Source: Bdellovibrio bacteriovorus HD100 (lineage in GTDB: Bacteria; Bdellovibrionota; Bdellovibrionia; Bdellovibrionales; Bdellovibrionaceae). From it: a stretch of DNA of 64,000 nucleotides. Made by a program: the position numbers and the translations under genes. Of this stretch, positions 13,921-47,305 are shown piece after piece. Positions within the stretch are counted from its first letter, which is position 1; each line of letters opens with the position of its first letter. The stretch is taken from assembly GCF_000196175.1 (NCBI RefSeq), contig NC_005363.1, positions 2,356,001 to 2,420,000 of the forward strand, read 5' to 3'. Under the pieces are notes generated by a model. It made no database searches and was not told where the DNA came from. It saw only the letters and a list, made by a program, of their open reading frames with translations.

Positions 13921-13948
13921 AAGCCGGAGTGTTCCTCCGGCTTTTTTT
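13921..13948. terminator. Bidirectional intrinsic terminator
   Basis: AAGCCGGAG (13921-13929) pairs with CTCCGGCTT (13935-13943) over a 5-base loop. Runs of A on the left and T on the right let it serve both converging genes. Confidence 0.92.
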
Positions 13949-13959
13949 GTTTCTGCACT

Positions 13960-14607
13960 TTAAGCGGCGTTACGCGCTCGCGCGCGGGATATTTCGCGGC
14001 ATTCATTGAGCATCTGATCGTAATAGCTCAGTGTCTGCCTCAGGTTCTGCATCACCACCACCTGATCTTCCGGGGAAAGACTGGCGATCTTAGTCAACGC
14101 CTCTTCGGTGTGCCCCACGTCCTCTTCCGCATGCACGCGGATAAAGTGCGCTGCTTTGGGACCCCAGGCTTTTTCAATGCGTTTATTCATGTAATCACCA
14201 AAGTGCGCCGCCAGTGCCTCCAACCCCAGAATGTATCCAAAGAAGGCCATCGGTGAATGGTGTTCAATGTAATAGTACTGTGTCTGGTAAAGCGCGCAGG
14301 TGCCCGGCATTTCCGGCCACTCGTCCATTTTGCTGCCCAGGGTTTTCAGGTCATTCACCAGCAATTTGTCGTGGCCTTTTTCTTCCGCACAATGGGCCAA
14401 GAAGCGGTTGTGGAACTCGGGCGCACCAAACGGCGTGCGTGCACCGGCCATGGCCAGCAGGCGCGTGGTGTGGCGGGCGAAATAGAAAGTCTGTGACACC
14501 CAGGCGGAATAGGCGTTTTTATCCTCCCACGGGAAGGCCTCAATTTGCTTTTTCGAGGAGTTCAGAAGCGTCATCAGTTCATCGTTCACGTTCTTATTAT
14601 TCGGCAT
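13960..14607 (-). CDS. Haem-oxygenase-like diiron protein (iron-containing redox enzyme family)
   Basis: The 215-residue all-helical protein carries the metal-ligand pattern of haem-oxygenase-like diiron oxidases (UndA, CADD, SznF type): an ExxH pair in EEKGHDK (E76, H79), a central Glu in LGLEAL (E130) and the Hx3Dx2H set in HAEEDVGH (H159, D163, H166). Such enzymes use O2 for decarboxylation, N-oxygenation or C-C cleavage, often in natural-product pathways. The gene is 30 bp downstream of a GNAT-like acyltransferase and probably co-transcribed with it. The substrate is unknown. A Tena/Thi-4-type non-redox helical protein is the alternative, but the complete ligand set argues against it. Confidence 0.75.
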   Translation of the reverse strand: MPNNKNVNDELMTLLNSSKKQIEAFPWEDKNAYSAWVSQTFYFARHTTRLLAMAGARTPFGAPEFHNRFLAHCAEEKGHDKLLVNDLKTLGSKMDEWPEMPGTCALYQTQYYYIEHHSPMAFFGYILGLEALAAHFGDYMNKRIEKAWGPKAAHFIRVHAEEDVGHTEEALTKIASLSPEDQVVVMQNLRQTLSYYDQMLNECREISRARARNAA

Positions 14608-14637
14608 GTTTTACTCTTTTCAGGTTTGAAAAAACCA

Positions 14638-15315
14638 TTAAGCTGCAATTTTAAGTTTTCTGGAAACTTCATTAAGACAATTCACATGCGAGCGCTTTTC
14701 CGCCCACAGACTTTCCACGAGAGCTGCTGATTTCGGTTCCGCCAAGGGAGTCACCTCTCCTTTGGCCGTCATCAGAATTTCACACTCATAGTTCATCTTC
14801 ATCACACTGCCAAAATAGGCTGTGCCACTTTTCTCGGCCTTGCGCCGCACATGCAGATCCTTGCGGGCCGTCCCGACCCAGCAATCCCATGGCGAAGCGT
14901 CCATCACCTTGCTTCCCAGCGCGATGATGATCTCGGCCCAGTTCACCTCCGCACTGCGGGAGCGGTATTCAGGGATCACAGTCAGGTACTCCATGCTCAT
15001 CAAAGTATTGATGCCACGGCTCTTGAATTTGTCGATAATTGCCTGATCAAAGGCTTTCATATAATGATGATCACGAAGGGCGTCCGAGCGCAGATCAAAG
15101 GCGCTGTACAAATGGAAACCGAAAACTTTTCCGTTGTCGGTCAGGCAGACAACAATGTCATTGCGATGAAAATCATCCGGATTCAAAGGTTCGCCGACCT
15201 TCCCCAGCACCTCTGAATAGACCCGCCTCCATACTTCGTAGACGTCGTTGCTTAATTTTACTGTTTCGGGGTTCAACTCGCGTGGATTGAAAAGGTGATA
15301 CTGAAACTTACCCAT
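14638..15315 (-). CDS. GNAT-like N-acyltransferase (possibly FeeM/autoinducer-synthase-like)
   Basis: A 225-residue protein with a GNAT-type core. DIVVCLTDNGKVFGFHLYS forms the first beta strands, and MEYLTVIPEYRSR resembles motif A, where acyl donors bind. N-acyl amino acid synthases and AHL synthases share this size and layout; that is a suggestion, not an identification. GGAGAG precedes the ATG. It lies 30 bp upstream of the diiron-oxidase-like gene, suggesting an acylated product later oxidised. A third gene on the same strand, the FNFF-motif protein, ends 133 bp upstream. Confidence 0.55.
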   Translation of the reverse strand: MGKFQYHLFNPRELNPETVKLSNDVYEVWRRVYSEVLGKVGEPLNPDDFHRNDIVVCLTDNGKVFGFHLYSAFDLRSDALRDHHYMKAFDQAIIDKFKSRGINTLMSMEYLTVIPEYRSRSAEVNWAEIIIALGSKVMDASPWDCWVGTARKDLHVRRKAEKSGTAYFGSVMKMNYECEILMTAKGEVTPLAEPKSAALVESLWAEKRSHVNCLNEVSRKLKIAA

Positions 15316-15448
15316 ACACTCTCCTTCCGGCAGAGTGTTTCGGACGTTCCAGCTGTGAAGTTAATAGTGTTTACTAATTTAAGACGTTTGATTCTGAGAA
15401 CCTGTGACTTGTGTGCTGTGTTTCTCAAAAAATCACATTGCAAAAAAA

Positions 15449-16120
15449 TCAGTTGCGGATCATTTCAACTTTCTCAAGAACGATCACACAATCAGGGCGC
15501 TTGTTGCGGTAAACCGGAGCCATTCTGCGAATTTCGCAGTTCATCGTCAAACGCTCCGCCGAACGGGCTTCGCGCAGTTGATGAACAGGAACATCCGGAA
15601 CAAATGTGCCATCCACTTCACCATTGAACACCAGATTGCAGGCATCGATGATTTTCTGGGTGACAGCTTCTTCTCTTTCAAACAAAGACCACCACTCGTA
15701 GGTGTTCAGTTCTTCAAGAGTGTAAGAACAGCAATCAAAGAAGTTGAAATTGCGGAACAACTGCACGTGTTCTTTGGAATAGATTTCGATGATATCTTCA
15801 TTCTGGATATGACTGAACAAATCAGAACTTGGAACCAAACCCAGACGACGGAAGGCCTTCCAGGTGAAAGAAAGACTGTCGTTGATTTTGTAGCCTTCCG
15901 CCAGCTGGGAATGACACAGCTCCTGATAGAAGCGTACCTGCTCTACGGCGTGCTTTTTCTTATCCAGTGGCAAACGGGAAAAATAAGGAAGACCCGGAAC
16001 ATACGGGCGCACGGTTTTACCTTCAGCTTTCAGCATCAGGGAAATATCCATGGCAATCGCCTTGAACTCTTCGTTCAGTACTTCGTGTTCATTGTCTCTT
16101 ACATAAATTTCTGGGTACAT
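15449..16120 (-). CDS. FNFF-motif protein, paralogue 1 (unknown function)
   Basis: The start at 16120 follows GAGGAAG and gives 223 residues, nearly the length of the paralogue at 46258-46926 (222). I do not know the family. Both share an N-terminal block (VRPY, then LPYF six to ten residues on) and a strongly conserved centre: IIEIYSKEHVQLFRNFNFF then CCSYTLEE (about residues 110-137). No signal peptide, helix-turn-helix or membrane segment is seen. Conserved His, Arg, Phe and Cys suggest a ligand or metal pocket, perhaps sensory. It sits upstream of the GNAT-like and diiron genes on the same strand. Confidence 0.65.
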   Translation of the reverse strand: MYPEIYVRDNEHEVLNEEFKAIAMDISLMLKAEGKTVRPYVPGLPYFSRLPLDKKKHAVEQVRFYQELCHSQLAEGYKINDSLSFTWKAFRRLGLVPSSDLFSHIQNEDIIEIYSKEHVQLFRNFNFFDCCSYTLEELNTYEWWSLFEREEAVTQKIIDACNLVFNGEVDGTFVPDVPVHQLREARSAERLTMNCEIRRMAPVYRNKRPDCVIVLEKVEMIRN

Positions 16121-16204
16121 GACTTCCTCGACAGGCCCTGCAAACATTGTTTGGGATCCTGTGAAGTATCATAGTGAAACGCAGGACTCTTGTCCAATTC
16201 AAAC

Positions 16205-46257: not shown

Positions 46258-46926
46258 CTAAATTGTGAAGTCGTTAATATTCCACACACAGTCTTCGATG
46301 GCGATCAGTCCTTCGACTTTGCCATCTTTGATCAGGGGCTCCAGATACAGGCGGGTCATATACATCTGCAGTCGCTCCAGCGACACGCGCTCTTGAATCT
46401 TATGAACTTCCGTGATGATCACCGGCTGATTCAATCGGCCTGACAAAATATAGTTGGCTTGCTCCAAAATACGCAAGGTCACTTCTTCCGCGCGGGAATA
46501 CAGATGAGGCCAGCTGCGACAGAAAACGTCTTCGATAGTATAGCTGCAAAATTCAAAGAAATTGAATGAACGGAAAAACTGCGTGTGCTTGTGGGAATAA
46601 AACTCGACAATACGCCCTTCCACATTCACCAACTGATCAAGCCCCTCAGGACTGATTTTATATCCGTAGTAGTCCAAGGCTGTTTTTACCAGGAAAGGCA
46701 TGTCCTTGATCCGACGTCCTTGACGGTGAACTGACCGGCAAACCTCAAGATACTGATTCATCAAATCCGTGGAATGAGCCTGCTCATCTGGATTCAATTG
46801 CTGAAAATACGGCAGAGTTTCTTGAGCATACGGACGTACAGACCAGCCCTCCTGCTCCAGCATAGAGGACAGCTCTTCACAAAGAAGTCTAAATTTTTGC
46901 AGATGTCCTTGGGTTGCCACACTCAT
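46258..46926 (-). CDS. FNFF-motif protein, paralogue 2 (unknown function)
   Basis: Starting at 46926, this gives 222 residues, almost equal to paralogue 1. The ORF could extend to 47001, but that would put the start beside the terminator of the upstream gene. The shared motif is IVEFYSHKHTQFFRSFNFF then EFCSYTIEDVF (about residues 106-134), with VRPY and LPYF near the N-terminus. No known domain is recognised. It follows an XRE regulator on the same strand, separated by a terminator, and converges on the tamA gene. Duplicate genes with so conserved a centre suggest a common ligand or partner. Confidence 0.65.
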   Translation of the reverse strand: MSVATQGHLQKFRLLCEELSSMLEQEGWSVRPYAQETLPYFQQLNPDEQAHSTDLMNQYLEVCRSVHRQGRRIKDMPFLVKTALDYYGYKISPEGLDQLVNVEGRIVEFYSHKHTQFFRSFNFFEFCSYTIEDVFCRSWPHLYSRAEEVTLRILEQANYILSGRLNQPVIITEVHKIQERVSLERLQMYMTRLYLEPLIKDGKVEGLIAIEDCVWNINDFTI

Positions 46927-47026: not shown

Positions 47027-47305
47027 TTAACGTGCTTTGCTGCTAGCGAACTTGCGGCGAAGATCCTGAGTCACCTCATGGATGGTCGCATTCAAGGTCA
47101 CTTCGAAAAGATCGTCAGCAGAAACTTTGTAAAGCTCACCCAATCTTTTCAATGCGTTGATTGGAGGATGAGAAACACCGCGCTCCCAGTTGGAAATGAA
47201 CTGTGGCGTGGAGTAACCCAATTTGTCAGCAACGTCTCTCTGAGAAAGACCTGCCGATACACGTTTTTGCTTCAAAAAATCAGCTAACATATTTTTTTGT
47301 CTCAT
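47027..47305 (-). CDS. XRE-family transcriptional regulator
   Basis: A 92-residue single-domain regulator. Residues about 9-65 form the XRE/Cro helix-turn-helix (LSQRDVADKLGYSTPQFISN). A short basic tail follows. GGTGGAA precedes the ATG. Its divergent neighbour is the acyl-ACP thioesterase gene across a 219-bp AT-rich gap where it probably binds; the downstream FNFF paralogue could also be a target. The signal it reads is unknown. Confidence 0.88.
   Translation of the reverse strand: MRQKNMLADFLKQKRVSAGLSQRDVADKLGYSTPQFISNWERGVSHPPINALKRLGELYKVSADDLFEVTLNATIHEVTQDLRRKFASSKAR

Follow-up and report, generated by a model that had tools for sequence, protein, structure and literature searches.

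The window analysed here is a 64,000-nucleotide stretch of Bdellovibrio bacteriovorus HD100 (NC_005363.1, positions 2,356,001 to 2,420,000 of the forward strand). Between positions 13960 and 16120 it contains the three same-strand genes reported by the first-pass annotation, all present, consecutive and on the minus strand (Table 1). They are read in the order PAS-domain protein, GNAT-fold acyltransferase, haem-oxygenase-like diiron protein (HDO), with gaps of 133 and 30 bases, and on sequence grounds likely form one operon. The promoter candidate upstream is weak, since four promoter-like sites were found and 2.2 are expected. The terminator-like stem-loop 3' of the HDO gene was seen directly in the sequence and is not among the elements that the automatic scan listed. 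Towards trxA, the cluster is bounded by a terminator-like stem and a promoter-like site. The longer open reading frame of the PAS gene begins at 16147, but position 16120, which the first-pass annotation had given as the end point of the cluster, is the better start because its Met is kept in 54 of 54 aligned homologues and is preceded by GAGGAAG.

Table 1. Features of the three-gene cluster and of a related gene pair in the window.
Feature	Position	Strand	Basis
Terminator-like stem-loop with T tract, 3' of HDO gene	13923..13941	-	Seen directly in sequence
HDO gene, predicted haem-oxygenase-like diiron oxidase/oxygenase	13960..14607	-	215 aa; PF14518, six ligands and profile matches
GNAT-fold acyltransferase gene	14638..15315	-	225 aa; AlphaFold2 and Foldseek; no named sequence family
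PAS-domain protein gene (FNFF protein of the first-pass annotation)	15449..16120	-	223 aa from conserved Met; AlphaFold2 and Foldseek
Sigma-70-like promoter candidate for the three genes	16168..16196	-	Consensus match only: TGGACA, 17 nt, TATGAT, 10/12
PAS paralogue, possible further receptor	46258..46926	-	PAS profile E 1.1e-54; start inferred
XRE-family HTH protein gene	47027..47305	-	92 aa; profile E 4.7e-28 in own genome

The HDO protein matches Pfam family PF14518 (Haem_oxygenas_2; E 2.5e-16, 60.4 bits, cut-off 28.9) and is the sole PF14518 protein found in this genome. The full ligand set given in its earlier description as a diiron protein is borne out, as E76, H79, E130, H159, D163 and H166 are invariant across 51 aligned homologues; D86 and Y196 are likewise invariant. 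The alignment conforms to the set of 3 His and 3 carboxylate ligands described for the HDO superfamily, of whose more than 10,000 members about a dozen are characterised (PMC13108848). Ligand set and Pfam family type are shared with the HDO enzymes UndA, MboA and SznF. In the profile search the nearest solved relatives are 3dde and MboA, the latter being the nearest characterised one. MboA desaturates a peptide side chain, and in MboA and several other HDOs the carboxylate of the substrate binds Fe1 (PMC13185094), a mode of binding for which an N-acyl amino acid or a fatty acid would be an apt substrate. UndA, MboA and SznF differ from the Bdellovibrio cluster in their partner genes, and an MboB-like reductase is not recurrent among the neighbours of the 77 loci surveyed below.

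The GNAT protein has no match in Pfam or NCBIfam, and the 47 family members scanned likewise lack a named family, including any autoinducer-synthase (LuxI) match and any match to the FeeM-type N-acyl amino acid synthase family. Thermostable hemolysin (T_hemolysin, PF12261) was rejected as a sequence relative (hhalign probability 0.1% against A7). The AlphaFold2 model (pLDDT 90) has canonical GNAT topology, in agreement with the first assignment as a GNAT-like acyltransferase. W29, F49, R51, Y85 and R151 are among its conserved residues. With this model, Foldseek places the AHL synthases RpaI, BjaI and LasI together with FeeM within the first dozen matches (FeeM structure 2g0b at rank 12, TM-score 0.52 of the query, with ordinary GNATs scoring close), and human Naa60, serotonin N-acetyltransferase and other ordinary GNATs are almost level with the AHL synthases. 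The modelled fold thus weakly resembles AHL synthases and FeeM most, narrowly ahead of other GNATs, a likeness to be read as a hint and not as an assignment because the ordinary GNATs stand so near. Neither sequence nor structure places the protein in a housekeeping GNAT family, the outcome that the first-pass annotation had named as speaking against its reading. A second GNAT gene of this genome (L092, 8331-9062, plus strand) lies between carboxypeptidase-like and GST-like genes, with neither HDO nor PAS gene nearby; second GNAT copies without HDO also occur in several other Bdellovibrio genomes.

The product of the third gene had been noted as an unknown conserved protein. Conserved it is, with 54 aligned homologues, but it can no longer be called unknown: the AlphaFold2 model (pLDDT 93) consists of N-terminal helices and a PAS fold, and the top Foldseek matches are PAS folds, with probability 1.00 to PAS-B, NifL and others. 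As modelled, the protein is a PAS-domain sensor; the Pfam scan of the family yields weak PAS_9 matches in 4 of 48 members. No HTH gene directly adjoins the PAS gene of the cluster, the nearest HTH-PAS pair being 31 kb away (Table 1). This orphan pair, with about 100 bases between its genes, belongs to the same two families as the regulator and sensor of the module, and its XRE protein is from the family found next to PAS genes of other genomes; a BamA/TamA-like gene adjoins the pair. Four more PAS paralogues of the same genome (G000:C1, 177287-177952, 731886-732524, 2329400-2330044 and 2790250-2790921) are without GNAT, HDO and HTH neighbours. Several such orphan paralogues are present per B. 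bacteriovorus-like genome, as expected if they are extra receptors.

In profile searches of 340 genomes of the phylum, 127 have GNAT, 161 HDO and 114 the PAS protein; comparison of the genome lists shows GNAT also in 104 of the 114 genomes with the PAS family. Among 141 genomes of the order, an HDO homologue lies within 2.5 kb of a GNAT homologue in 80 of 102 cases, and in 69 of these 80 it is directly downstream on the same strand. The linkage of GNAT and HDO is not due to chance. The first-pass annotation had made its reading depend on conserved linkage in relatives, and the neighbourhood analysis finds that linkage phylum-wide. Both proteins are fused in a single ORF of 455 aa in G088 and share a frame of 462 residues in G017; L097 has two complete sets in tandem. 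The distance matrices of HDO, GNAT and PAS protein correlate (r 0.51-0.61, Mantel p 0.0005), which fits co-inheritance and also plain vertical descent.

The plasmid pBdHM1 of Bdellovibrio sp. HM001 carries the whole HTH-GNAT-HDO-PAS set as a compact unit (L146, 84-2393), with all four genes hypothetical in the deposited annotation; the GNAT profile has one match among plasmids, in Bdellovibrio. Plasmid carriage, a variable genomic context and a small XRE regulator would also suit an anti-phage or toxin-antitoxin unit. Such a unit is hardly credible here, as PADLOC has no match for HDO, GNAT or PAS protein and returns generic HTH and kinase matches only, no nuclease or effector gene recurs among the neighbours of the 77 loci, and the HDO of pBdHM1 is matched by none of 50,697 phage records.

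The partner that would oxidise the acyl product varies. In seven loci a fatty-acid desaturase gene lies close by (PF00487 in each of the four that were scanned). Its start overlaps the end of GNAT at L161, where HDO is absent, and L163 likewise has GNAT and desaturase without HDO. At L158, GNAT is followed by a gene for a FAD-linked oxidase, and at L167 (3065-5377, minus strand) GNAT is fused to a FAD-binding oxidase domain in a protein of 770 aa, with a kinase of the multi-TM family described below nearby. The oxidising partner is swappable while GNAT and sensor stay, which points to an acyl product that needs oxidation. These arrangements also bear on whether the genes form a stress-response unit, in which GNAT would acylate or acetylate a protein, a tRNA or an existing phospholipid and HDO would be a separate redox enzyme. 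The near-equal Foldseek scores of Naa60, serotonin N-acetyltransferase and other GNATs are in its favour, and so is the position of the Bdellovibrio genes beside trxA and cell-wall genes. Yet these neighbours recur only in Bdellovibrio contexts and are for that reason ruled out as members of the module, and the GNAT-HDO fusions together with the replacement of HDO by a desaturase or a FAD oxidase, once GNAT-fused, argue for one shared small-molecule pathway. A stress-response unit is accordingly improbable.

Sensor genes accompany the enzymes in nearly all of the 77 loci surveyed, each with GNAT and/or HDO; ORF calls in the relatives are mechanical, and some of these loci end at contig edges. 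A PAS gene lies within 3 kb in 59 of the 77 loci and an XRE HTH gene in 34. The two are direct neighbours 25 times, 20 times on one strand, mostly with short gaps or overlapping. Fourteen loci without a PAS gene have a histidine kinase nearby, mostly as the next gene, so that 73 of the 77 loci possess either a PAS gene or, in its absence, an adjoining histidine kinase. Twelve of the 14 kinases have a homologous multi-TM N-terminus, in which a Pfam scan of five examples matched no sensor domain; the remaining two have in common a soluble N-terminus of another kind. A profile of the multi-TM N-terminus has 30 matches at E 1e-45 or better in the 340 genomes, 27 of them within 4 kb of GNAT or HDO, and as 12 of these 27 are the loci from which the profile was built, the independent support comes to about 15 loci. 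The multi-TM kinase sensor appears to replace the PAS protein in Bacteriovoracia-like and some other genomes. The split between PAS and kinase partly follows phylogeny, most kinase loci being from one family (f18).

A synthase gene is thus linked to a candidate receptor gene, as in acyl-signal systems, and the sensor would be the receptor of the product. We favour, with a probability of somewhat under 0.6, the reading of the locus as an acyl-signal synthase with its own receptor, of which the product, its binding by the receptor and any quorum behaviour are the inferred parts. Three features are best accounted for by a signal that GNAT and HDO make and the PAS protein or the kinase perceives, namely the pairing of synthase with sensor and the interchange both of sensors and of oxidases. 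GNAT would first acylate an amine, for example an amino acid, with a fatty acyl group supplied by acyl-ACP or acyl-CoA. The diiron HDO would then use O2 to oxidise the GNAT product, desaturation and oxidative decarboxylation being two conceivable reactions; in some relatives a fatty-acid desaturase or a FAD-linked oxidase may supplement or take over this step. The PAS protein would finally sense the product and act via the small XRE DNA-binding protein whose gene adjoins its own in many relatives, the role of sensor falling to a dedicated multi-TM histidine kinase in Bacteriovoracia-like and some other genomes. The original suggestion that the genes may make a signal or lipid is consistent with these data and gains from the adjoining desaturases and dedicated sensors, with the nature of the product as its conjectural part.

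Several observations count against a signal. No exporter gene recurs among the neighbours of the 77 loci, the Foldseek gap between AHL synthases and ordinary GNATs is very small, the PAS gene of the cluster lacks an adjoining HTH gene, and the second GNAT stands without HDO or PAS. The adjoining sensors could, moreover, answer oxygen, redox or membrane state instead of the product. Sensor genes next to biosynthetic genes are common in natural-product clusters, and the main rival of the signal reading is a regulated biosynthetic cassette of this kind, in which the product, an oxidised N-acyl compound, would be a lipid, antibiotic or membrane component and the PAS/HTH proteins or the kinase would switch the pathway on according to oxygen, redox or membrane state. 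Oxygen and redox state are common stimuli of PAS domains, the FAD-PAS of NifL is among the Foldseek matches, O2 is used by HDOs and desaturases, and antibiotics and lipids are known among N-acyl amino acids (PMC12479983). Against this, enzymes of one kind are accompanied by two or three unrelated sensor types, and multi-TM kinases of this family occur almost solely with the GNAT/HDO module, both in keeping with a ligand that the module itself produces; exporter and resistance genes are not recurrent beside the 77 loci, and the several orphan PAS paralogues per B. bacteriovorus-like genome are as expected of extra receptors. Such a cassette is on balance rather unlikely.

Named-record relatives of HDO are found in Bdellovibrio, in other Bdellovibrionota and in three Oxalobacteraceae MAGs (L131, L132 and L133, about 1.2-5.9 kb; 27-29% identity). 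In the latter, HDO is flanked by an RpfC-like hybrid kinase on one side and an RpfF homologue (E 8e-60 to RpfF 3m6m) on the other. A DSF signal modified by HDO is possible from this gene order, which also speaks for the signal reading. Related HDOs are also encoded on plasmids of Vibrio, Citrobacter, Salinivibrio, Pantoea, Variovorax and Alteromonas (L141-L145, L147), in an operon of thermostable hemolysin, AMP ligase, HDO, SDR and TPR genes, which two-component genes adjoin in L143 and L145. This proteobacterial operon holds the nearest proteobacterial relatives of HDO, but it has AMP ligase, SDR and TPR as extra genes, and its hemolysin profile is unrelated to the Bdellovibrio GNAT.

As a candidate acyl-signal system, the Bdellovibrio module shares with LuxI/LuxR and LuxM(AinS)/LuxN a GNAT-like synthase fold and a synthase gene linked to one for a ligand-sensing regulator or for a membrane histidine kinase. 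It differs from LuxI systems in that its GNAT lacks a LuxI family match, its core holds a predicted O2-using diiron enzyme, and its candidate receptor consists of a stand-alone PAS protein and a separate XRE protein instead of a LuxR protein. FeeM and other N-acyl amino acid synthase clusters such as NasY and TyzABC are likewise of GNAT-like fold, with a weak likeness of FeeM to the model that ordinary GNATs nearly equal, and in the tyrazolone and dehydrotyrosine pathways an acyltransferase is followed by an oxidising enzyme, as in the module (PMC12856293, PMC12479983). The oxidising step of the NasY/TyzABC type is carried out by a flavin oxidase or a nitroreductase with a ThiF-like cyclase, whereas the module has HDO, and no cyclase gene recurs among the neighbours of the 77 loci. 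The RpfF/RpfC system for DSF resembles the kinase-bearing loci in pairing a fatty-acyl enzyme with a membrane kinase, but the DSF synthase has an enoyl-CoA hydratase fold, not a GNAT fold, and the Bdellovibrio cluster is without an RpfF gene.

Beyond the single locus, it is quite possible, and put forward here tentatively, that Bdellovibrionota possess a signal family of their own. Its members would be O2-modified N-acyl compounds, made by GNAT together with HDO, a desaturase or a FAD oxidase and perceived by a split PAS-XRE receptor or a multi-TM kinase, with orphan PAS receptors in some genomes. In the literature searched, with coverage of subscription journals limited, no synthase-receptor signalling system native to Bdellovibrio was found, nor any direct precedent for HDO, DSF or acyl signals in this genus. 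A genome paper of 2011 states that wolf-pack predation was not observed in Bdellovibrio or Micavibrio (PMC3189940). The compact gene set of Bdellovibrio and many relatives, with a dedicated sensor next to an acyltransferase and an iron oxygenase that probably make a small fatty molecule, may represent an unrecognised form of cell-to-cell signalling of predatory bacteria. If so, population signalling of these predators would become open to direct test through this phylum-wide synthase-receptor module, one clade of the HDO superfamily would gain a role defined by its partners, and a new family of membrane-kinase sensors would be described.
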